40,113 bases of DNA from Treponema sp. GTDB lineage: Bacteria; Spirochaetota; Spirochaetia; Treponematales; Breznakiellaceae. The translations under genes and the position numbers were made by a program. Under the pieces are notes generated by a model. The model had not been told where the DNA came from, searched no databases, and saw only the letters and a program-made list of their open reading frames with translations. Numbering within the stretch: the first letter of the stretch is position 1; every line of letters begins with the position of its first letter. Positions 13,948 to 27,001 of this stretch are shown here, one piece after another. The stretch is taken from the NCBI GenBank assembly GCA_031288975.1, contig JAITQK010000076.1, forward strand, positions 1 to 40,113. The letters run 5' to 3'.

Positions 13948-15067
13948 TCGAGGTCCTATTGTTTTTCTACCGGTTCCCGAATCTCTCAGTGGGCGTCTTG
14001 AATCCCTTTCTGGGGCAGAGGAATCTGTTTTTACTTTTGATCCTGCCATTCCCATTCCAGTAGAACTGGGGCCGGGTATGACGGAGCTGGACCTGGAGGA
14101 ACTTTCTTGGGAGATGATCCTTTCCGGGATGATCCGGGTGGTTGCAGATAGTCCTGATGATGCTTATGCCCTCTATTACCGGCGTTTTGTCTTGGGGGTA
14201 AAACCGGATATCTTAAACGAATTGACCGAAGCGGCCATTCTTAAGGCTCGAAACGGTGATTTTGATATGGCTCTGGAGATTCTTTCGGCCCTGGAAGGGC
14301 TTTTTCCCCGGTCCCCAGTGGTACTCCTCAACCGTGCCCTGGTCCTGGAGGAGCAGGCTGAAGCATGGGAGCGGGTAGGCTTGGAAGCAGATGCCGAGGG
14401 TGGCTATGAATCGGCCCGGGAAGCCTACCAGGAAGTTCTTGACCTGGACCCACCCTTTCCCAATGGCATTTTTAACGCCGGTTTCTTCTTTATGAAACGC
14501 CGGAACTTTGACCAGGCACGGGCCTGTTTTTCCACCTATAGCTCCCTGGCAGATGATCCTGCAAAGCACGAGAAGGCCGAGGCGCTCCTCAAAGAAATTG
14601 AGAGCCAATGCCTGGATGACGCCTTGTTCCGGGAAGCTTACGACGCTATCCGCCAGGGAGAAGCGCAAACCGGGCTGCTCAAGATCCGGGACTTTCTTGA
14701 ACGGCACCCGGAGGTCTGGAACGGCTGGTTCATCCTGGGTTGGGGGCTGCGGAAGCTGGGCCGCTGGGAAGACGGGGTTGCGGCCTTTAGAAGAACCATA
14801 GAACTGGGAGGGGACACCAGTGACACCCGGAACGAACTGGCCATCTGTCTGATGGAGAGCGGTTCTTTACCGGCTGCCCGGAAGGAGCTTGAGATGGCCC
14901 TTCGGGAAGACCCTGAGAACATCAAGATCATCTCCAACCTGGGGGTACTGGCCCTCAAGAACGGGGATGATGATGAGGCTGCGGGATTTTTCCGCACGGT
15001 GCTGGAACTGGAACCTGCAGACCCATTGGCACAGGAATATCTGGCGAACGGGTTGGCACATAGTTAG
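13934..15067 (+). CDS. Tetratricopeptide-repeat protein
   Basis: 377 residues from ATG 13934 (overlapping the PilZ gene by 14 nt); an in-frame ATG at 13895 is an alternative, neither having a clear ribosome-binding site. After an N-terminal region of about 85 residues, the protein is a series of helical pairs with TPR spacing: ARNGDFDMALEILSALEGLF, ESAREAYQEVLDLDPPFPNG, RRNFDQARACFSTY, LGRWEDGVAAFRRTIELGG, GSLPAARKELEMALREDP and NGDDDEAAGFFRTVLELEPA. No signal peptide is seen, so a cytoplasmic scaffold role is inferred, perhaps with the PilZ protein encoded just before it. The stop codon overlaps that of the convergent MFS gene. Confidence 0.85.
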   Translation: MNSPNRGPIVFLPVPESLSGRLESLSGAEESVFTFDPAIPIPVELGPGMTELDLEELSWEMILSGMIRVVADSPDDAYALYYRRFVLGVKPDILNELTEAAILKARNGDFDMALEILSALEGLFPRSPVVLLNRALVLEEQAEAWERVGLEADAEGGYESAREAYQEVLDLDPPFPNGIFNAGFFFMKRRNFDQARACFSTYSSLADDPAKHEKAEALLKEIESQCLDDALFREAYDAIRQGEAQTGLLKIRDFLERHPEVWNGWFILGWGLRKLGRWEDGVAAFRRTIELGGDTSDTRNELAICLMESGSLPAARKELEMALREDPENIKIISNLGVLALKNGDDDEAAGFFRTVLELEPADPLAQEYLANGLAHS

Positions 15068-16275
15068 GATGACGTGCTGCGGGTCTCAACCTTGATGGTT
15101 GCCGCGTAGATTGAATTAAGAAGCCCCAGAAACGCGGAAATCGAAAAAAGTACCTCAATACCTGTGACTTTCCATATCCACCCACCCATGAGGGCAATGA
15201 AGATACTGATCAGATGATTCACTGAAATACCCGTAGAAAGGGTGGCGGTGATTTCCTGCTGGGATGAGGCTATGGCCTGTACATAGACGTTGCTAGCCAT
15301 ACTCGCCAGGGAAATGATGGAATCGAGCACGTAGTTGACGCAGACCACAATGAAGGCGACCTGTGGGGGAAATAGCCGATGGGCAAAGCCGTAGAAGAAA
15401 CACACTACAATTAAAAGCAGGGTATCGCTTACCATGATGAACTTATAGCCCAGGCGGTCGATGAGCTTTCCAGTGAGGGGGCTGAAGATGATCCCGAAAC
15501 CTGCGCAGATCGCCAGGAGCAGGGCAATGACAGAGGTATCGGCGCCGTATTGGAGGATGAGCACGTAGGGGGCAAAGGTGAGGAAGATCTGTTTCCTGGC
15601 GCCGTAGAAGACTTCCAGTATGTAGTATGTGACGAATTTCCTGGCAAAGTAAAAGCGCCGCCGGGGGGTCTTGATGGTGGATTCCTGGAGGGCAAGGACG
15701 ATGAGCACCGCCGCCACCATCAGGGCCACAGCCACCGCAAAGACCCCCTTGAACTGAAGCACGTCGGTCCGGGCAAAGCCCAGCCGGGAAAACACGAAGA
15801 ACATGGTGGTGACCATCAGGAAACCCAGGATATTCCCCGCGTTGCTGATGGCGCTGGTGACCCCTAAGGAAGCGCCACCCTTGCTGCTTTGGGCCAGGTC
15901 CAGGGAGATGGTGGTCCTCACCGGCATGATGATGTGTTCCCCGGTACTGAAGAGCACCATGCAAATCACGGTGATGACCTTGCCACTGGTACTGAGCAAT
16001 AGCCCGACAAGCCCTGCGGCCATGATGGCAATGCCGATCTTGAAGATCCGGCTTTCAGTAAACCGGTACATCCAGGCAAGAATCAGGACCACCAGAAGCC
16101 CCGGAGTTTCCCGGAAGAATTCCACGATACCCCGTTCAAAGGCGGTGATATGCACGATTTCCGCCAGGTAATTATCCTGGATGCCCCGGTACAGGCCGTA
16201 ACTGACGCCAAAGAGGGCCAGCACGCTTAAGAAGCGTGCTACCTTGGCATCAGGACGGTAAATATCCAATCGCAC
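15064..16275 (-). CDS. Major facilitator superfamily transporter
   Basis: 403 residues, translated from GTG 16275, 12 nt after the barrel-protein stop, with a GAGG site about nine bases ahead. The sequence is a series of about a dozen hydrophobic segments with an intracellular loop after the second pair and a central cytoplasmic stretch (KTPRRRFYFARKF) dividing two halves, as in MFS proteins. Segments such as GILFSPLTGKLIDRLGYKF-type (GIIFSPLTGKLIDRLGYK) match the MFS loop motif between helices 8 and 9. Substrate is unknown. Third gene of the minus-strand lipoprotein/barrel operon. It ends on an overlapping stop with the TPR gene. Confidence 0.85.
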   Translation of the reverse strand: MRLDIYRPDAKVARFLSVLALFGVSYGLYRGIQDNYLAEIVHITAFERGIVEFFRETPGLLVVLILAWMYRFTESRIFKIGIAIMAAGLVGLLLSTSGKVITVICMVLFSTGEHIIMPVRTTISLDLAQSSKGGASLGVTSAISNAGNILGFLMVTTMFFVFSRLGFARTDVLQFKGVFAVAVALMVAAVLIVLALQESTIKTPRRRFYFARKFVTYYILEVFYGARKQIFLTFAPYVLILQYGADTSVIALLLAICAGFGIIFSPLTGKLIDRLGYKFIMVSDTLLLIVVCFFYGFAHRLFPPQVAFIVVCVNYVLDSIISLASMASNVYVQAIASSQQEITATLSTGISVNHLISIFIALMGGWIWKVTGIEVLFSISAFLGLLNSIYAATIKVETRSTSS

Positions 16276-16287
16276 CGGTTGTTGTCC

Positions 16288-17652
16288 TCACCACCCAAAC
16301 CGTAGGCCAACGGCAATGTTCAAGCCATGCAACTTAAAGCTATCAGCAAATTCCTGGGACCTCAGCCCGGCTTCAACGTCCAGCTCAAAAGCACGGAGGT
16401 TCAGGGCAAAGCCCAGCCTATGCTTCCAGAGGGTTTCTTCCAAACCCGTACCAAGATGAACAGAAAACAAATAGGCATTATCAAAGGACTTATAAAAATG
16501 CAACAGATTCAACCGGGCATCAATACCCCAATTAAAGTAGGGCTTCTCCGCTGGCGTGAGCAGGGTAAATCCGATATTCGGCTTTAACACCAGCATATTG
16601 GATTTCAAGGGCTTGTAAAAAGCATAAAAATCAAACCGTAAAGGCCGGCGCACGGAATATGAAACATCCGATTCATACTCACGCTTAAGATCAAAGTCTG
16701 TATTAATCGTTCCTGTGTCGAGGATCTCACTGGAATTAATATTAAACTCGGGAAGCACTATGTTCATGCGATTGTTCAGTACCGCCGCGACCAGGGGAAT
16801 ATGGGTTACGGTTGCTCCTACATCAAGGATTGGGAAGATTGGGTATTCCGCCTCAAGGGAGATATCAAACCCCTTGGCGTTGAGAATACTCGTCGCATCC
16901 ACCCCTATATCCTCAAGAGAAAAAGCGCTGTATACATTTATCTCACCACTGGTGCTCACACTCAAGTCATCGTCAGCATCTAATTGATAGTGTATAGAAG
17001 ACTTGGGAATATAGACAAGGGGAACATACATGGCCGGTATAATGCTGATCTTCAGCTTGTTCAGCTTGCTGATTCTCGCATGAATGTCCACACGGGTATC
17101 CGCGAAAACGCTCCCCCAGGCAGTAATATCCCCTCCATTGGAGTGATTCTTTAAATTTCCCTCGGAGATCAAGGTAAACAAGGACTTAGGTAAATTAACG
17201 TGTATCCCACCCTCAACATTGGTGGATATTCCAAAACCCCAATGGTCCCCGGCATTCATATTAAGAAAAAAAGGAGTAAGCGCCATATCGAAATCTAAAC
17301 TTACCCCGGTATCATCGCGCACCTTATCACCGAGTTTATTCAAGTCAAGAACGATGTGTTGCTTGAGTATATCACCGACACCGATAAAGTTATTTGCCAG
17401 CCCTGCGCCAGCATCAATGCCGAACTCAAAAAAACGGCGAGGCCCTTCCGCAAACACCGGCTTGGGTTTATCCTGCTTCTCAGGCTTAGGTTCCTTTGCA
17501 GGCTTTTTCGCCGTATCCGCCGGGACAGCCTCTTTTGCAGACGCTTCCGCATGGTCCCGCACTGACTCAAGTTCCTTCTCCGTAGACTCTTGTCCATACA
17601 CATGCAGGGACAGGGTAAGGACGCACACGAATAGGGATATATATCTTTTCAT
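16288..17652 (-). CDS. Outer-membrane-type beta-barrel protein, copy 1
   Basis: 454 residues with a cleavable signal peptide (residues 1-20, ending VYG), then a Lys/Pro/Glu-rich linker (about 25-68) and a body rich in alternating polar and aromatic residues, ending in LRFGW, the aromatic C-terminus expected of an outer-membrane barrel. It is paralogous to the product of 21983-23209: shared blocks include EFGIDAGAGLANNFIG/EFGLDGYAGLASNYIG, PAMYVPLVYIPKSSIHYQLD, the GFDISLEAEY block, and RRPLRFDFYAFYKPL followed by LKPNIGFTLLT. The 68-residue linker is missing in the other copy. The gene begins 9 nt after the lipoprotein gene, with AGGAG overlapping that stop. Resembles FadL/DUF5723-type barrels; function unknown. 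Confidence 0.7.
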   Translation of the reverse strand: MKRYISLFVCVLTLSLHVYGQESTEKELESVRDHAEASAKEAVPADTAKKPAKEPKPEKQDKPKPVFAEGPRRFFEFGIDAGAGLANNFIGVGDILKQHIVLDLNKLGDKVRDDTGVSLDFDMALTPFFLNMNAGDHWGFGISTNVEGGIHVNLPKSLFTLISEGNLKNHSNGGDITAWGSVFADTRVDIHARISKLNKLKISIIPAMYVPLVYIPKSSIHYQLDADDDLSVSTSGEINVYSAFSLEDIGVDATSILNAKGFDISLEAEYPIFPILDVGATVTHIPLVAAVLNNRMNIVLPEFNINSSEILDTGTINTDFDLKREYESDVSYSVRRPLRFDFYAFYKPLKSNMLVLKPNIGFTLLTPAEKPYFNWGIDARLNLLHFYKSFDNAYLFSVHLGTGLEETLWKHRLGFALNLRAFELDVEAGLRSQEFADSFKLHGLNIAVGLRFGW

Positions 17653-17661
17653 ATTCCGCTC

Positions 17662-19230
17662 CTAAAAGGTAATGGTTTGATTGATTTTGGCCTTGGCTTC
17701 CACCACCAGGGAAAAATCAAACTCGGCAGTACCGCTACCAATACTGAGTGTACCGTAGTCCATGCCGTCGCTCTTGGGAATGAGGATTTCAAACTTAGGG
17801 CTAAATGGATAGGGCAGCTCATCCAGGTCAATCTTAATACTGTCCGATTCCCCATTATTTAAGGTAAGCACGTTACTATACGTCTTACCCGCAATAATTG
17901 ATATTGAGAACCCATCTTTTACTATGGTATTGTGGCAGTCATTTAAATAAATCTTAACATAGTCCAGACTCTCAAACAAATCGTCCTCTTTACCGGTCCT
18001 GCCGAACAAATCGTCATCACCCGTATCAGGCAGCAGATCACCCAGCTCCAGTTTTACGAAGTTGTCATACTGATCTTTCTGTTCAGATGTTAAAGAGTCA
18101 TAATTACCCGGCGTAGTAGGTGAACCGAAAATCTCAAATTTCAGCGGCAGCACAATAACCAAATCGATGGTGATTGTTTGTAGAGTATCGTCATTTTTTA
18201 TGGGTATTTCCTCCATTATCATTTCATACGACAATGCGATAGAATTGTCCTGCGACGGTATCAAAAAATCAGTAAATTCAAGAGCGTCACCACCAAAATC
18301 AATTGATTCTATCTCCTTATCATCATTCAGAGGAAGTTTCGGCATAGAATCATGAACTATACCTTTCTTAACTGGTTCTCCTCCATCAACTGAAAGCGTG
18401 ATTGTAGGCTCCCAGTCTTCAGGTAAACCCACATACATGTACGTCGGTATACTTTTAAATGAAACCCCTTTACCCAAGTAGTTTATCAGATCCCCTATGG
18501 AAAACGTATAATTTCCATTATAATCCAGACCTTCGCCTTTCTTGGGCTGAATTGTCGCACTCTCCCAGTCGAAATCCAGTGCCGGTTTGAAGGAATATCC
18601 GAAGGGGACTGTAATATTTATGGTGATACTGTTGTGGTCTTGAGGCTTCAATTCAAGAGGAGGATGGGTAAAATTACCTGAATCATCCTTAGTTTCAGTT
18701 TGGTCTTGCCCATTTATGTTAAAGGCAACAGAAACACCCATAGTAGGAATTTCACCCCCAAAGTCTAACGTAACTATGAACTGTGCACCCTTAACCGAGG
18801 TAACCCATTCAGTCATTTCGCCGAGGGGTATGGTAATGGATACCTGGCCGCCGGTCCCCGGTATATAGTCATCCGGCGTTCCAATCCCACCAGTAACATC
18901 AAGTTCCTTCACATATTGAGACAAGTCGAGGTTCATCTTCGCAATCTGATAATGCATCAGATAGGTCTGCACACCAGAGAAATCAGAGGAATCAGCAAAT
19001 TTGTACTTATACAGCGTTACTCCAGCCTCTGCTCCCCCCATCAAGTCCTTGATGGTCTCTTCATTAAAATAATGAGTTACCGTCATGTCCCCCGTGAAAG
19101 GATTCCCCAGGGGAAGATACACTCCCGGCTCCCCCTGGACCGTCAGCGATTCCGGGATCTGAAAATCACAGGCAGCCATGATCAACACGGCAAAGACCCC
19201 TACCCAACCAAATAACGTCTTTTTTTTCAT
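17662..19230 (-). CDS. Large lipoprotein of unknown function, copy 1
   Basis: 522 residues from ATG 19230, chosen because GGAGG lies seven bases upstream; the frame is open to 19281. Lipoprotein signal with the lipobox LIMAAC, Cys21 being lipidated. The body is acidic and beta-rich with no cysteine motif. It is a paralogue of the product of 19782-21980: both carry LPLKFEI/LPLKFKI, the block DLFGRTGKEDDLFESLDYV (DLLGRTGPNDPLDENLEYV in the other), a YPFSPKFEI/YPFKPEIEI segment near the C-terminus and a closing VEAKAKINQ/VQVKARIDQ strand. First gene of the minus-strand operon; the barrel gene follows after 9 nt. Family unknown to me; partner of the barrel by genetic linkage. Confidence 0.75.
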   Translation of the reverse strand: MKKKTLFGWVGVFAVLIMAACDFQIPESLTVQGEPGVYLPLGNPFTGDMTVTHYFNEETIKDLMGGAEAGVTLYKYKFADSSDFSGVQTYLMHYQIAKMNLDLSQYVKELDVTGGIGTPDDYIPGTGGQVSITIPLGEMTEWVTSVKGAQFIVTLDFGGEIPTMGVSVAFNINGQDQTETKDDSGNFTHPPLELKPQDHNSITINITVPFGYSFKPALDFDWESATIQPKKGEGLDYNGNYTFSIGDLINYLGKGVSFKSIPTYMYVGLPEDWEPTITLSVDGGEPVKKGIVHDSMPKLPLNDDKEIESIDFGGDALEFTDFLIPSQDNSIALSYEMIMEEIPIKNDDTLQTITIDLVIVLPLKFEIFGSPTTPGNYDSLTSEQKDQYDNFVKLELGDLLPDTGDDDLFGRTGKEDDLFESLDYVKIYLNDCHNTIVKDGFSISIIAGKTYSNVLTLNNGESDSIKIDLDELPYPFSPKFEILIPKSDGMDYGTLSIGSGTAEFDFSLVVEAKAKINQTITF

Positions 19231-19323
19231 TCCAATTCCTCCATAGAGTAATAAAATATTATAATAGCAAAAAATAAGCAATAAAAGATTAAACTACCTA
19301 TTCTCAAGCTCTATTATCATATA

Positions 19324-19352
19324 ATAATATCACAGGGAACTACGATATTCAA
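19324..19352 (-). promoter_or_regulatory. Sigma-70-type promoter for the minus-strand lipoprotein operon
   Basis: On the minus strand TTGAAT (19352-19347), 17-nt spacer, TATTAT (19329-19324). The leader to ATG 19230 would be about 85-90 nt and is very AT-rich. Confidence 0.5.
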
Positions 19353-19467
19353 GGAACAAGGGTAGCCGATTGATAAAAAAAAACTGCGTATCAAGTTGGA
19401 ACAGGTATCGTTATTTTGGACGATCTTTCCGCTGTCAACAGGTTAAGCGATATTATAAAGGAAGATT

Positions 19468-19545
19468 AACCACTAAGTTACACGAAGTAGCACAAAGTAT
19501 CTATTCTTCTTCTTACTTTGTGAAACTTTGCGATACTTCGTGGTT
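19468..19545. repeat. Imperfect palindromic repeat, copy 1
   Basis: Arms 19468-19499 and 19514-19545 are inverted repeats matching at 25 of 32 positions, separated by a 14-nt pyrimidine-rich loop. The arms begin AACCACTAAGT and end in TACTTTGTG. A related palindrome lies at 38767-38852. The sequence type (AACCACGAAGT...) resembles dispersed palindromes seen in many genomes; no coding or transposase signature accompanies it. Confidence 0.6.
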
Positions 19546-19552
19546 TTTTCTT

Positions 19553-19657
19553 CTGTGATTATATTCTTAGCGGGGTTTTCTCATAAAAGCATAGCTTTCT
19601 TGCCTATAAAAAATAAAATAAATAAATGCCGGTACCCTGACGAAAAACGGTGGGGTA
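19553..19657. other. Spacer between the palindrome and the plus-strand promoter
   Basis: AT-rich intergenic sequence with no gene, RNA fold or repeat that I can support. Together with 19231-19552 and 19658-19781 it forms the shared control region of the two head-to-head lipoprotein operons. Confidence 0.5.
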
Positions 19658-19686
19658 TTGAAAATTTCTCCTGGAAATCGTATCAT
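19658..19686 (+). promoter_or_regulatory. Sigma-70-type promoter for the plus-strand lipoprotein operon
   Basis: TTGAAA (19658-19663), 17-nt spacer, TATCAT (19681-19686). Transcription would begin near 19693, inside the G-tract of the hairpin that follows, giving an untranslated leader of about 90 nt. Confidence 0.5.
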
Positions 19687-19689
19687 TAA

Positions 19690-19715
19690 GGGGGGAAAAA
19701 TCCCCCCGCACCCCC
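19690..19715 (+). other. G-tract with two competing C-tracts in the mRNA leader
   Basis: Six G (19690-19695), then A5, then six C (19702-19707), GCA and five C (19711-19715). GGGGGGA and TCCCCCC can form a perfect 7-bp hairpin with a 4-nt loop; the second C-tract could pair with the same G-tract, so two alternative folds exist. Confidence 0.5.
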
Positions 19716-19723
19716 AAAAAGGC

Positions 19724-19760
19724 GTCTGGCCGTGTTCCATGGGAGACCGTGGATTGAAAA
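19724..19760 (+). repeat. Degenerate CRISPR-repeat-like sequence
   Basis: GTCT (19724-19727) and AGAC (19744-19747) form the outer arms of a poor hairpin; it is followed by CGTGGATTGAAA (19748-19759), identical to the 3' handle of the solitary CRISPR repeat at 24149-24180. No second copy and no spacer-like spacing is seen nearby. It lies just upstream of the ribosome-binding site of the plus-strand lipoprotein gene. Confidence 0.4.
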
Positions 19761-19781
19761 AGAAAGAGAAAGGAGTCTGTG

Positions 19782-21980
19782 ATGAATTATAACAAACCGT
19801 TTTGGGGCCTATGCTCCATTATAACCGTCCTGTTTATAAGCGCCTGCCCCGGGACATTTAATATGCCCGAAAAGGTGAAGATTACCGGTAGTCCCACCTT
19901 GGCCGTCCCCCTGGGTGGGCCAGGTTTTGACATAGATGAGTATCTGTCTATCAGCAGTGTCCAGGCTATGATTGGTGGTGAGGGGGAAAGTTCCGGTTTA
20001 GCGGCGTATGAGTATGTCGGTGCCCCAGGAACCAATCCCACCCAGACCTTCCTCATCCATTATCCTATTGATGCAATAGAGTATAAAATAAGCCCGGAAG
20101 CTCTGGACTTTAACCACATGCAGGAAGAAATTGAGATGCCTGAAGGTACGCCTTTTTACATAAAAATTCCCGAAATAAAACCAACATCAATGCTTGAAAT
20201 TGTTATACACATTTCGGAGGATATTAAGAATTTGGTAAGTCGTGCTTCAGATGATGATCCTATTACGCTGCCTGGAGATTTTGGTCCTATTTTATTGAAT
20301 TTGGCCGGACCCGGTTTTAATCGAGCGAAAATCGGCACTGGTAGGCTGGTTTTTGGAAATGAAGGGGAGAACCTGAATTTTTCGGAGGTGTCTTTTACGC
20401 TGAAAGGCGGCTCTATACCGGACCAGCAGATAAACGGCCAAGATCGGACCTGTCCTCTGAATGGAAAGGTTATTTTTGAAGATACGAACATAAGCCTAAG
20501 CGGGACCATCAAAACCACCGCCGGGATGCTCAAAAACAAGGCAGAGTTAAGTATTCCCATAGACGTGGAGATTACTCACTTCTCAGAAATAGCTATAGCA
20601 TCACCTGATAAGATTACTGCAGCAATTCCCGTTGATTTAACCTATATGGCCGCGTGGGTTGAGTCAGTTACGTTTCAGGAGCTTGGGATTACGTTGAAAA
20701 TCGCGCCCCGTATTGACGGCTTGAACGTAAATTTCCATGCTCCGGTTTTTGGTATTGATGAGACGCAGATATCATCAGAAACAACCTTCAAGGAGGGAAT
20801 GGCTTTTAGCCCTTCTGATGACTATATACTCAACCTCGCTACGGATTATAGTCCTATTACGATTACTGTTGGTCGCCAGGGAGATATACTGACTTTGTAT
20901 GATGTTACTCCCGGAGACCCAATAGAGCTTGCCATTGCGATTGAACAACCACTGGTTTTCGATTGGACGAAGGCGGTAGTATATCCAAACAAACTTTTCG
21001 ACTATTTGAAAACCGAGGCAGAGAAAGACCCGAATGCTGCTCCTCCACCTCAATTTAATGGTCACTTTCCTGCCGACGGGGAACAGGGGTTTGATCTGAG
21101 TCAATTTACCGAGTCTTTAAATAAGATCATGGCGGAAGGCGAAATTGACAAGATCGAGTTTGATAGCATTCCTATGAACCTCTATGTAACCGGGGCGGAT
21201 GTTCTGAGTAGTATCAGTATAAAGATGGATGCCCGATATAATTCAGATACAGTAGAACAACTTACAGAGGGGAAGTCTCAACCCCTTAAGAAGATGTCAG
21301 AACCCCTTGGTGATTTCCCTACCGATGGGAAATATTTAAGGAAACTGCCAGATGCATCTTTTTCAACCGACTTGGCCGGTATTTTCAATGCTAAACCAAA
21401 GGACCTCTTTCTGGACTATGAGTTAATGTTCGAGCCTACGATGACCCTCTATCGTGACGGAGGAGATTTGAACCTGACGCTCAAGCCTGATCTGATCATC
21501 GAACTGCCTCTGAAGTTTAAGATAGCAGCCGAGGAGCAACCTGATGACAATGGGAAGTACTATGCCCAATTAGACCTCCAGGGACTGATACCCCAGACGA
21601 GTGGAGATTTGCTCGGCAGAACCGGGCCGAATGATCCGCTTGATGAGAACTTGGAGTATGTTGACTATATTTCCTTTAATGTGAACTATACCAACACCCT
21701 AGGGTTAAGCGGTACCTCGATATTGCTAACGGTGAAAGAGGATACAGAGACCCGTTTTAGTAAACCCCTGCTCCAGTTATGGGATGGGGGACCCCATGAG
21801 AGTCTCTTGCAGCTTCAGGTGGAAGACCTCAAGTACCCCTTTAAGCCGGAGATCGAAATAAAGATTGATGCTAAACAACGAGGAGGTTATGGTATCCTGG
21901 AGATTAAGCAGGGCAAAAAACTGGAAATAGCCATAACGGTGCAGGTGAAAGCCAGGATCGATCAGGAAATTGAGCTATAA
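19782..21980 (+). CDS. Large lipoprotein of unknown function, copy 2
   Basis: 732 residues from ATG 19782 (AAGGAG at 19769-19774 favours it over GTG 19779). Lipoprotein signal with lipobox FISAC near residue 22. Acidic, beta-strand-rich, about 210 residues longer than the minus-strand paralogue, the extra length lying in the first half; similarity is clear at the N-terminus (a PEKVKITGSP-type start and PLGGP) and strongest in the last third (LIIELPLKFKIA, DLLGRTGPNDPLDENLEYV, YPFKPEIEI, VQVKARIDQ). Probably displayed on the periplasmic or outer face of the outer membrane with the barrel encoded 2 nt downstream. No enzymatic motif is visible; the family is unknown to me. Confidence 0.8.
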   Translation: MNYNKPFWGLCSIITVLFISACPGTFNMPEKVKITGSPTLAVPLGGPGFDIDEYLSISSVQAMIGGEGESSGLAAYEYVGAPGTNPTQTFLIHYPIDAIEYKISPEALDFNHMQEEIEMPEGTPFYIKIPEIKPTSMLEIVIHISEDIKNLVSRASDDDPITLPGDFGPILLNLAGPGFNRAKIGTGRLVFGNEGENLNFSEVSFTLKGGSIPDQQINGQDRTCPLNGKVIFEDTNISLSGTIKTTAGMLKNKAELSIPIDVEITHFSEIAIASPDKITAAIPVDLTYMAAWVESVTFQELGITLKIAPRIDGLNVNFHAPVFGIDETQISSETTFKEGMAFSPSDDYILNLATDYSPITITVGRQGDILTLYDVTPGDPIELAIAIEQPLVFDWTKAVVYPNKLFDYLKTEAEKDPNAAPPPQFNGHFPADGEQGFDLSQFTESLNKIMAEGEIDKIEFDSIPMNLYVTGADVLSSISIKMDARYNSDTVEQLTEGKSQPLKKMSEPLGDFPTDGKYLRKLPDASFSTDLAGIFNAKPKDLFLDYELMFEPTMTLYRDGGDLNLTLKPDLIIELPLKFKIAAEEQPDDNGKYYAQLDLQGLIPQTSGDLLGRTGPNDPLDENLEYVDYISFNVNYTNTLGLSGTSILLTVKEDTETRFSKPLLQLWDGGPHESLLQLQVEDLKYPFKPEIEIKIDAKQRGGYGILEIKQGKKLEIAITVQVKARIDQEIEL

Positions 21981-21982
21981 GG

Positions 21983-23209
21983 ATGAAGCAGCCGATACCG
22001 GTCTATACATTTCTGTTGTGGATAAGCTGCTGGTGGACGCAGCCCCTCTGGGCCGAAAAACCCTTCAGATATGTTGAGTTCGGCCTTGATGGATATGCAG
22101 GGCTGGCGTCCAATTATATCGGCCTCTGGGATGTTTTTAACGAAGACCGGGTCGTTAAGCTCGATTTAGATGCCCTGCCGAGCGGTGATTTTGCGGTGAA
22201 TGGCGAAGCAGGGGCGCGGGTGTTCTTTAATATCAATGTTGGCGAGAAGTTCGGGCTTGGATTTTTCGCCGGTGTGAACACCCTATTCTACCAGAGCCTG
22301 TCCCACACGCTGCTCAAATTTCTAGCCCAGGGGAATGGGGATATGCGGCAGTATACGTCGGATATCGCCCTGGGGGGAAGTGTGTTCGCCGACGCGGGTA
22401 TACAGATGTCCCTCAAGATCGGGAAACTGCATGCCGGGTTTTCACCGGCCATGTATGTTCCACTCTTGTACCTGCCGAAGCCGCTCATACGGTATCAATT
22501 CGACAGCAGCCTGGATAGTATGTATCTTGATATAAATGCAGATGTAAACGCCTATACCCCTATTTCCATTGAGAACGTCATGGAGGGTAATCTGGCTATT
22601 TCTACAGACACCATCATGGATCTGCTTGATGCACGGGGCTTCGATGTTTCCCTCAACGCCGAATACGCCCTGGTCCCCATGCTTGATGTGGGAGGGATCG
22701 TTACCAACATACCGCTGATACCTGCGGTGCTGGCCCACCAGACCCATATTGACTTTCATTATCGTTATGATCCAGCTGAGGGTATCTACGACTCGCTGCT
22801 TAATAACAGCTTTGAGTTTGATGACCTGGAGTTTAATGATCCGGTCTATTCAGATAACGCATCCTTCCGTGTTTTCCGCCCCCTGCGCTTTGATTTCTAC
22901 GTGTTATTCAAACCCCTAGTAACCAATACGGTGATCATCAAGCCGAACATAGGGTTTTCCGTGTTGACCGTATACGATGAAGCCTGTTTTAACATGGGCC
23001 TTGAGGCACGGTTGCGGGTTGGGCGCATACTTTTTTTCCGTATCGGGACGCTGTACCAGGAGAAAATCTGGCGGAATCAGTTTAACCTGGGCTTGAACCT
23101 GCGGCTCATTGAACTGGACCTGGGATTGAATCTCCAGTCCCAGGATTTAAAGGGCATTTTCGATATTAAAGGCGCCGGGGTATCTATTGGCATTCGTATA
23201 GGTTTTTAG
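21983..23209 (+). CDS. Outer-membrane-type beta-barrel protein, copy 2
   Basis: 408 residues; signal peptide about 1-24 (hydrophobic FLLWISCWWTQPLWA). The body alternates polar and hydrophobic residues and ends ISIGIRIGF, with the C-terminal Phe expected for barrel assembly. It aligns along its length with the minus-strand barrel protein (PAMYVPLLYLPKPLIRYQFD, the GFDVSLNAEY block, FRPLRFDFYVLFKPL, IKPNIGFSVLT). It lacks the Lys/Pro-rich linker of that copy. The start ATG is 2 nt after the lipoprotein stop (TAAGGATG), so translation is coupled. The two proteins very likely act together; transport or anchoring are both possible. Confidence 0.75.
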   Translation: MKQPIPVYTFLLWISCWWTQPLWAEKPFRYVEFGLDGYAGLASNYIGLWDVFNEDRVVKLDLDALPSGDFAVNGEAGARVFFNINVGEKFGLGFFAGVNTLFYQSLSHTLLKFLAQGNGDMRQYTSDIALGGSVFADAGIQMSLKIGKLHAGFSPAMYVPLLYLPKPLIRYQFDSSLDSMYLDINADVNAYTPISIENVMEGNLAISTDTIMDLLDARGFDVSLNAEYALVPMLDVGGIVTNIPLIPAVLAHQTHIDFHYRYDPAEGIYDSLLNNSFEFDDLEFNDPVYSDNASFRVFRPLRFDFYVLFKPLVTNTVIIKPNIGFSVLTVYDEACFNMGLEARLRVGRILFFRIGTLYQEKIWRNQFNLGLNLRLIELDLGLNLQSQDLKGIFDIKGAGVSIGIRIGF

Positions 23210-23233: not shown

Positions 23234-24124
23234 ATGTTTGGAACGATGTTTTTTTTGTCGCGTTCCAGTGGGGCACCCAGGTTGAAACCGGGTATGATGT
23301 GCGGTGTTTTATTCGGGGCCGCCATTGCCGTTGCCGCAGACCCTATGGTTTTTACCTACAAGGTGGGCGGATTTGAGGTTTACATGCTGGTGGAGAACCG
23401 GGGCCAGGGGCGCAGTTCCATCCTCATCGGTGTGAATGATGCCCAGCTCAAACAGTATGTACCTGGAGGTACTTATCAATCGGAGACGAATACCTTTCTC
23501 ATCCGCACCCCGGATCGTATCATCCTGGTGGATACGGGGTTTGGAAGCACGCTGTTTGAAAGCATGGGCGTCCTGGGGATAAAGCCCGAGCAGGTTGATA
23601 CGGTACTCCTCACCCACCTGCACGGTGATCACATCGGGGGGCTTCAGAAGAACGGGCAGGCACTGTTCCCCAAGGCTGAGGTGTATCTTGCCCACCAGGA
23701 ACGGGAATACTGGACCCGGACCAATGTGAATCAGGCTGCAGTGGCGGCCCTTGCCCCCTACGGTTCCAGGGTCCATACCTTTCTGCCTGGAGACTTGGGC
23801 GCTGCCGGGGAACTCTTGCCTGGGATCACCCCCATTGCGGCCTTTGGTCACACCCCGGGGCACACCCTGTACCTGGTAACATCGGCGGGGAAAAAGCTCC
23901 TCATCTGGGGCGATCTGATGCACGTTCAGGGCATACAGTTTCCCCTTCCTGGTATCTCAGTAAGCTATGACACGGACCCCGCAGCAGCCGCGGCCATACG
24001 CAGGCGGGTCTTGGAATATGCTGCCCAGAACAGCATACCGGTTGGTGGCATGCACCTGAACTACCCTGCTGTGGGCACAGTACGCGCCGAAGGGGATGGT
24101 TTCGGGTTCCGTCCGCTTAATTAA
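23234..24124 (+). CDS. Exported metallo-beta-lactamase-fold hydrolase
   Basis: 296 residues, ATG 23234 after GGGAGG. An N-terminal hydrophobic stretch (MMCGVLFGAAIAVAA, about 21-35) ending AVAA makes a signal peptide, so the enzyme should act outside the cytoplasm. The MBL metal-binding motif THLHGDHIGG is at about 127-136 (His128, His130, Asp132, His133); further ligands are His in GHTPGHTLY (about 210-218) and Asp in LLIWGDLMH (about 228-236). The NTFLIRTPDRIILVDTGFG start of the fold is also typical. Substrate unknown (lactonase-like or other hydrolase). Third gene of the plus-strand lipoprotein operon. The stop overlaps that of the convergent NFACT gene. Confidence 0.85.
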   Translation: MFGTMFFLSRSSGAPRLKPGMMCGVLFGAAIAVAADPMVFTYKVGGFEVYMLVENRGQGRSSILIGVNDAQLKQYVPGGTYQSETNTFLIRTPDRIILVDTGFGSTLFESMGVLGIKPEQVDTVLLTHLHGDHIGGLQKNGQALFPKAEVYLAHQEREYWTRTNVNQAAVAALAPYGSRVHTFLPGDLGAAGELLPGITPIAAFGHTPGHTLYLVTSAGKKLLIWGDLMHVQGIQFPLPGISVSYDTDPAAAAAIRRRVLEYAAQNSIPVGGMHLNYPAVGTVRAEGDGFGFRPLN

Positions 24125-25657: not shown

Positions 25658-27001
25658 TTGACAAACCAGGAGCCGGAATCTACAATCGGCAAGGTGTTTG
25701 CCATAGCGGGGAAATATGTTACGAATTTTTTCTTTTTTTTCTTTTTTTTCTTTAGTGCCCTTGTTTGCCTGCTCATCTCGGGCTGTACGGGAGAGGTCAA
25801 AGGGGGGGTAAGGGGTAAAGCTCCGGCGGAAGCGGGCACGGCGCTTGCCAATGCTGTTGCTGAGGAGCCGGCCTTTGAAGACCCTGTGGAATACCGCGAA
25901 CAGGCGGCCCGCATCGCCGCTCTTATGGATGACCGGCTCCTTGCAGGGCAGGTGTTGATGACCGGTATTGACGGGAATGTGGTCTTGGGGGAAACCATGG
26001 AGGACCTGCTTCGGGCCAGTCCCCCAGGGGGAATCATGCTTTTTAAGTACAACCTTGACGCTGAAAAAGACCAGGTCCGTTTTTTTTTGGAAGCCTGTTC
26101 AGCCCTTATCGCGGCGGCAGCTTGTCCTGAGCCAGCCCCTGGAGGTGAAATGGGAGCAGGTCCGGGAATCGCCCCGTTTATCGCCGTGGATCACGAGGGG
26201 GGACAGGTTTTCCGTTTTGGGCCTGAGGTGGGCCGGCTTCCCGCAGCGGCTTCGTTCTGGGAGACAGCCCAATCAGCGGGAAGGGACTATGCCCTCCATG
26301 CGGTTGAGGAGGGGGCTTACCGGTCGGGACAGGAAATCCGGGACCTGGGCATCACCATGAACCTTGCCCCAGTGGCGGAGATCCTTGATGAGGAGAACGG
26401 GCTGTTTTTGGAGACCCGTTCCTACGGACCGGATCCGGTTTTCGTTGAGGCCGCAGCGGCGGCGTTTATCCAGGGTATGGAAGCGGCGGGCATTGCCTGC
26501 GTGGTGAAGCATTTCCCTGGAAACACCGGTGCAGACCCCCATAGCGGGAGAGCCGTATTATCGGTGGATGGGGAGGTCCTGGATAGGATGGTCCAGCCCT
26601 TTGCCTCCCTGATCCATCGAGTGAAGCCCCCAGGGATGATGGTCTCCCACATCGTGGTACCTGCCTGGGATGGAGAACACAACGCAAGCCTTTCCCCCCG
26701 GGTCATCCAGGATTGGCTCCGGGGGAACCTGGGATTTACCGGTATCCTGTTGGCAGATGATTTTTCTATGGGCGCGGTGGCGGTTTTCGACTTAAGCCCC
26801 GAAGACGCAGCAGTGGAGGCCCTCAACGCGGGTATTGATATGGTGATGACCTGGCCCCGGAACCTGAGTGCTGTACACGGCGCAATCCTCGCTGCAGTAC
26901 AGGAGGGCCGCCTCCCCAGGGAACGGCTTCGGCAGGCAGTGGAACAGATCCTGTTTGAGAAAATCCGGTATGGACTGGTGCCGGAGAACAATGGATGGTG
27001 A
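25658..27001 (+). CDS. GH3 family (NagZ-like) beta-N-acetylhexosaminidase lipoprotein
   Basis: Predicted exported glycosidase of family GH3, probably acting on peptidoglycan-derived N-acetylglucosamine. The open frame gives up to 447 residues; the start is unclear because no ATG exists in frame (TTG 25658 or GTG 25694). A poly-Phe stretch from a T-tract forms the signal, followed by the lipobox LLISGC. NagZ marks: FIAVDHEGGQVFRF, KHFPGNTGADPHSG (acid/base His) and the nucleophile Asp in LADDFSMGAV. An out-of-frame ATG (25716) with a GGGGA site precedes the tract, so the gene may be frame-shifted in this clone (see findings). Its end overlaps the pseudouridine synthase start. Confidence 0.8.
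   Translation: MTNQEPESTIGKVFAIAGKYVTNFFFFFFFFFSALVCLLISGCTGEVKGGVRGKAPAEAGTALANAVAEEPAFEDPVEYREQAARIAALMDDRLLAGQVLMTGIDGNVVLGETMEDLLRASPPGGIMLFKYNLDAEKDQVRFFLEACSALIAAAACPEPAPGGEMGAGPGIAPFIAVDHEGGQVFRFGPEVGRLPAAASFWETAQSAGRDYALHAVEEGAYRSGQEIRDLGITMNLAPVAEILDEENGLFLETRSYGPDPVFVEAAAAAFIQGMEAAGIACVVKHFPGNTGADPHSGRAVLSVDGEVLDRMVQPFASLIHRVKPPGMMVSHIVVPAWDGEHNASLSPRVIQDWLRGNLGFTGILLADDFSMGAVAVFDLSPEDAAVEALNAGIDMVMTWPRNLSAVHGAILAAVQEGRLPRERLRQAVEQILFEKIRYGLVPENNGW

Follow-up and report, generated by a model that had tools for sequence, protein, structure and literature searches.

The closest described systems to the locus studied here are found in Bacteroidota, where the barrel BamG (a member of the FadL family) and the lipoprotein BamH are reported to be universal and core to BAM, where BamH docks via a conserved N-terminal tail that is wedged into BamG, and where BamG2 and BamH2 constitute another FadL-like barrel and lipoprotein in an operon-like pair (PMC12578637, PMC12611786). 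In Treponema pallidum, five FadL-like proteins have been described (TP0548, TP0856, TP0858, TP0859 and TP0865; PMC8407342), and a PopA-type family, associated with lipid-trapping oligomers, has a member in T. denticola (PMC12228718).

We analysed a stretch of 40,113 nt from a Treponema sp. (referred to as the window), which represents contig C145 of a 2.8-Mb genome that is divided over 248 contigs and is approximately 80% complete. The closest named relatives of this genome are MAGs assigned to Treponema or Spirochaetaceae, which we take to be of termite-gut origin on the basis of their isolate series. The window contains two head-to-head units, each consisting of a lipoprotein gene (LP) followed by a gene encoding an outer-membrane barrel (B), and the features that are relevant here are the following:

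15064..16275, minus strand: MFS transporter, encoded third in the type I unit (Pfam MFS_1, 5e-21)
16288..17652, minus strand: B1, type I barrel, 454 aa, with a signal peptide and a linker (residues ~20-70); last residue Trp
17662..19230, minus strand: LP1, type I lipoprotein, 522 aa, with Cys21 in the lipobox MAAC; opens the LP1-B1-MFS unit
19093..19170, minus strand: Cys21 and conserved N-terminal tail of LP1 (CDFQIPESLTVQGEPGVYLPLGNP...), the proposed, inferred dock on the barrel
19466..19551, no strand: palindromic hairpin repeat of ~86 nt between both units (fold z -6.2)
19782..21980, plus strand: LP2, type II lipoprotein, 732 aa, with Cys22 in the lipobox ISAC
19845..19922, plus strand: Cys22 and conserved N-terminal tail of LP2 (CPGTFNMPEKVKITGSPTLAVPLGGP...), the putative dock on the barrel
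20079..20618, plus strand: extra region of LP2, ~180 aa, not in LP1 according to alignment and column occupancy
21983..23209, plus strand: B2, type II barrel, 408 aa, with a signal peptide; last residue Phe
23234..24124, plus strand: MBL-fold hydrolase with a signal-peptide-like N-terminus

All four open reading frames that a preliminary description had put forward (a lipoprotein and a barrel, twice) were present at these positions, with gaps of 9 nt (LP1-B1) and 2 nt (LP2-B2), and the sequence blocks quoted there (GRTG..SLDYV/NLEYV, YPF, PAMYVPL and PLRFDF) were recovered as well. An RBS-like GGAGG or GGAG precedes the ATG of LP1 and LP2, and in both proteins a signal peptide leads up to the lipobox cysteine. 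For the MBL-fold hydrolase the nearest curated model was that of the AidB lactonase, with a score far under the cut-off.

Two repeats in the window deserve mention in their own right. The hairpin repeat at 19466-19551 occurs in 40 copies in the window's genome, in one copy in a genome of the same genus and in none of 18 other relatives; it is probably a REP/MITE-like element that expanded recently and it has no part in the mechanism discussed below. At 25726-25753, 3.1 tandem copies of TTTTTTCTT lie in the part of a GH3 (NagZ-like) gene that encodes the signal peptide, giving rise to a poly-Phe stretch; the G002 orthologue of this gene has an ordinary signal peptide, and the repeat is possibly a length-variable tract.

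The proposal that the two units are paralogous gene by gene was borne out by direct comparison. LP1 and LP2 could be aligned over 472 columns at 25% identity (BLASTP E 9e-17), with a second N-terminal segment also aligned (E 2e-11), and B1 and B2 over 411 columns at 35% identity (E 1e-78). The arrangement is likewise conserved in relatives: a lipoprotein gene is located immediately upstream and on the same strand for 51 of the 54 barrels, where these numbers refer to distinct loci in the spirochaetes sampled and to barrels with sufficient upstream sequence. Treponema and its relatives from termite guts have retained the two genes as neighbours, and G268 contains two pairs in tandem. The conserved pairing, the lipobox on the lipoprotein and the aromatic residue in which 27 of 33 barrels end together support the earlier suggestion of a two-gene outer-membrane unit. 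The lipoprotein and barrel distance matrices were found to be concordant (Spearman 0.74, a value reached by none of 2000 permutations; 0.73 when confined to the window's family), an agreement that is partly accounted for by shared ancestry and tight linkage.

The three exceptions to the adjacency are G001, contig C67 of G013 and the second copy in G040. In G001 (83% complete) a type I lipoprotein gene and a type II barrel gene are divergently oriented at a distance of 66 nt (L034, 5440-8430), and no further lipoprotein or barrel was found in that genome; the two possibly represent a mixed pair, and the pairing between lipoprotein and barrel may therefore not be strict. On contig C67 the barrel has no lipoprotein gene beside it and is neighboured by unrelated large proteins. 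The barrel of G040 (L048, 7943-9367) has no upstream lipoprotein gene, whereas the pair is complete at the syntenic locus of G037 (L051, 7128-10718); G040 has a full pair at another locus.

Relatives of the barrel were identified by profile in at least 48 of 297 spirochaete genomes, a count in which absences may be overcounted. As a query, an 8-row subset of the alignment worked, the full 27 rows being too diverse; a single-protein search of the genome contigs with P0002 gave no match. The barrel profile also had no match in some of the single-contig relatives. In trees of both the barrels and the lipoproteins, many deep branches of which are weakly supported, type I unites LP1-B1 with pairs from G011, from G012 and from several MAGs, and type II unites LP2-B2 with that of G002 and other pairs with a long lipoprotein. 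A third set (type III) includes G003, the second copy of G012, G016 and one barrel of G002, and in this set the pair is followed by a gene for an unannotated protein of ~500 aa (c3). Members of this ~500-aa family, which appear outer-membrane-like, are found at L033 5595-7115 (minus strand), L039 9221-10813, L040 8683-10176 and L044 4712-6178, and the two members tested had no Pfam match.

We obtained single-chain AF2 models of B1 (built from 17 sequences) and LP1. The B1 model is an outer-membrane barrel of moderate confidence (pLDDT 75, pTM 0.68, TM ~0.4 to FadL-type structures) with about 16 strands, an uncertain count, compared to 14 in FadL. A Foldseek search of the PDB yielded TodX (E 2e-7), TbuX, the BamG proteins of three Bacteroidota and PorV (8gl6_F, 6h3i_F) among the best matches, with E-values between 2e-7 and 6e-5 and TM scores of ~0.3-0.4. 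PopA-type lipid-trapping oligomers (PMC12228718) had been considered as well and were set aside on the indirect ground that the fold search led to FadL-type barrels.

At the level of sequence the relationship to FadL appears to be an indirect one, via DUF5723 (PF18990), a family without a characterised function that was not named in any paper found in the literature searched. B1 scored just below the DUF5723 cut-off (24.9 against 26.8 bits), B2 did not match this family, and DUF5723 matched 5 of the 27 barrel family members at E 0.01; a barrel of G228 passed the cut-off (30.9 bits), but most members of the window's family do not. In profile comparisons, the barrel family matched DUF5723 at 89-95% (spirochaete DUF5723 at 94.6%) and spirochaete DUF5723 in turn matched FadL at 96.6%, whereas a direct comparison of the barrel profile with FadL (hhalign) gave only 2%. 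PF03349, the family of FadL, TodX and TbuX, had no match in the window's genome. The earlier view that the barrel has no family was not supported: its profiles lead to DUF5723 and from there to FadL, and its best fold matches are FadL-type proteins, BamG and PorV. Nevertheless, the window's barrel family differs from FadL in that the NPA hatch motif is missing from its alignment consensus, in its GLANN N-terminus and in having a dedicated lipoprotein partner. The T. pallidum FadL-like proteins are also treponemal FadL-type barrels but apparently belong to another family, as neither the barrel nor the lipoprotein profile had a match in G045, a 1.1-Mb genome of the same order that, going by its size, we guess to be T. 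pallidum.

Distant DUF5723 barrels in two other spirochaete families are also encoded directly after a lipoprotein gene and do keep NPAG (LYNPAG); the lipoprotein-barrel arrangement therefore extends past the window's family. Examples of such NPAG barrels are found at L161 3541-7267, L162 5367-8949 and L163 5138-7829, behind lipoproteins with the tail PxWxxxxxxP[IL]. The likeness of this tail (PxWxxxxxxP[IL]...L) to that of the window's lipoproteins is superficial, and homology between the two lipoprotein groups was not supported by profile comparison (6%).

Within the lipoproteins, the lipobox cysteine (C21) is invariant in the 23 aligned sequences, and the tail at and directly after it is the best-conserved block of 20 residues (1.83 bits in LP1 and 1.87 bits in LP2, where ~1.1-1.2 is typical), with a consensus of approximately IPExVxIxGxPxxxxPLGxP. 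The model of LP1 (pLDDT 72) is beta-rich and among its top 50 Foldseek matches only generic beta-sandwiches were found (TM normalised by query length no higher than 0.15). The lipoprotein family profile had no match up to E 10 among the PDB sequences, and PDB sequence searches with the lipoprotein and barrel family profiles generally gave chance matches or none. LP2 owes its larger size mainly to residues ~100-280, which about half of the family members share (column occupancy is 0.3-0.6 for the greater part of this region). The difference in length (522 versus 732 residues) had been taken as a sign of functional divergence; the copies have indeed diverged, but the size gap is not specific to them.

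Another finding was that the lipoprotein changes fast. For LP2 and its orthologue in G002 (dN 0.18, dS 0.21) we obtained a dN/dS of 0.87 (bootstrap 0.68-1.16), compared to 0.26 (0.13-0.44) for B2 and 0.07-0.40 for five neighbour genes, the values for LP2 and B2 being derived from one genome pair; some windows along LP2 exceeded 1, single windows being noisy. This rate is consistent with exposure of the lipoprotein to a changing environment, while relaxed constraint or recombination could produce it instead.

The association with the MFS gene proved to be a conserved one. The order lipoprotein-barrel-MFS was found in 10 loci, all of type I, with MFS proteins that are 69-83% identical to that of the window. 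In the seven loci in which all three genes are complete, the distance between the barrel and MFS genes varies from an overlap to 33 nt (one apparent overlap, of 155 nt, hinges on the start codon chosen), and the mean pairwise identity rises from the lipoprotein (39%) through the barrel (54%) to the MFS protein (76%), an order that holds in 21 of 21 comparisons. The MFS gene is therefore a regular member of the type I operon and not just one of the different third genes that the preliminary description had noted. The idea of a fixed partner beyond the lipoprotein and the barrel in all types was rejected, as MFS is restricted to type I, c3 to type III, and the other neighbours vary.

By analogy with BamG and BamH, we infer that each unit would give rise to an outer-membrane complex of a lipoprotein with its own FadL-superfamily barrel. 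The lipobox cysteine of the lipoprotein would carry the lipid, the conserved tail of ~25 residues would pack onto the barrel or insert into it, and the body, which is large, variable and beta-rich, would be held at the barrel, most likely at the cell surface, like BamH on BamG. In type I, lipoprotein and barrel would then hand a probably hydrophobic substrate towards the inner-membrane MFS protein encoded in the same operon, while type II would be an outer-membrane pair without MFS. The passage of a hydrophobic compound is suggested by the MFS gene in type I and by the relationship to FadL. We give this reading as a whole, with a tail-docked lipoprotein on a FadL-like barrel that in type I feeds an MFS protein, a probability of roughly 0.5. 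More tentatively, the type I products could constitute a three-part route for a hydrophobic compound across the envelope (surface lipoprotein, FadL-like barrel and MFS), in which the outermost part diversifies fast and the MFS protein is fixed; in that case a docking mode like that of BamGH would have been put to use in transport.

The same FadL relationship, the MFS gene in the type I operon and the fast evolution of the lipoprotein would also fit a barrel that acts on its own as a FadL-like channel for hydrophobic compounds, next to a merely co-transcribed lipoprotein that serves as an exposed decoy, an adhesin or a phage-facing protein. We consider this unlikely, as the adjacency of the lipoprotein is near-invariant in families whose other neighbours differ, its tail is conserved, and barrels without an adjoining lipoprotein are rare (2 of 54).

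A role in the assembly of surface proteins seems distinctly unlikely. The units would then correspond, in spirochaetes, to the BamG-BamH accessory module, with the barrel as a BamA-bound platform and the lipoprotein as part of an extracellular canopy that aids the assembly of surface lipoproteins and barrels. The fold search with B1 indeed ranked the BamG proteins of three Bacteroidota near the top, BamG2 and BamH2 likewise represent a FadL-like barrel and a lipoprotein in a putative operon (PMC12578637), and the conserved tail of BamH docks on BamG (PMC12611786), so that both systems combine a FadL-superfamily barrel with a lipoprotein that has a highly conserved N-terminal tail. The spirochaete pair, however, is patchily distributed, whereas BamG and BamH are reported to be universal in Bacteroidota, and the lipoprotein shows no sequence or fold match to BamH (BamH was absent from the 50 best structural matches of the LP1 model, which is of moderate confidence), which makes a role in BAM less likely; in addition, the linkage to MFS would be left unexplained. 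As the likeness to BamH is positional only, we do not claim membership of the BamGH system and compare the working principle alone.

PorV was also among the fold matches of B1, and a DUF5723 relative in G073 weakly matches the NCBIfam model PorV_fam (27 bits, cut-off 90), but a PorV-like barrel that shuttles or anchors secreted surface proteins, with the lipoprotein as its resident cargo, is very doubtful since no type IX component was recognised beside the pairs in the neighbourhoods examined.

The preferred reading, a lipoprotein docked on its own barrel, applies to two units whose head-to-head order had been explained as an inversion of a whole two-gene unit. A recent inverted duplication would account for this order and for the homology, but it is scarcely credible, being contradicted by the trees, in which B1 and B2 are clearly not mutual nearest relatives (B1 clusters with the barrels of G011 and G012 and shares 52% identity with a barrel from a different genome but only ~36% with B2, while B2 clusters with G001 and G002), and by L029 and L059, in each of which MBL and MFS genes border a single type I unit. 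Judged from these relationships, LP1-B1 and LP2-B2 are best described as old paralogues belonging to types I and II.

The neighbouring genes suggest how the two came together. In the window, LP1 and the MBL gene are the immediate neighbours of LP2-B2 on either side; an MBL gene comes after B2 in G002 as well. In L029 (G012) and L059 the MBL gene is found divergently upstream of the type I lipoprotein gene, so that it is to be regarded as part of that neighbourhood. Taken with the gene order in L029 and L059, the position of LP2-B2 would suggest that a type II pair was inserted into the intergenic stretch separating LP1 from the MBL gene, and that this happened in an ancestor of the genus. For the few genomes at hand this would be the simplest history, simpler than an inverted duplicate. 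In L057 an MBL gene upstream of the type I lipoprotein gene was not found; the sequence of most of the other type I contigs stops before that position. The arrangement in G001, in which a type I lipoprotein gene faces a type II barrel gene, appears to be derived from the head-to-head arrangement by later reduction.

The outer membranes of spirochaetes are markedly unlike those of other Gram-negative bacteria, and to our knowledge little is known about the uptake of hydrophobic nutrients and the display of lipoproteins in these organisms. The conserved two-gene unit and the lipoprotein-barrel-MFS operon provide a concrete, testable system for the spirochaete outer membrane, and the conserved tail motif of the lipoprotein provides a handle for finding further lipoprotein-barrel partners. 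The comparison also suggests that the arrangement of a lipoprotein on a FadL-type barrel, as found in the BAM of Bacteroidota, has a counterpart in a second phylum.
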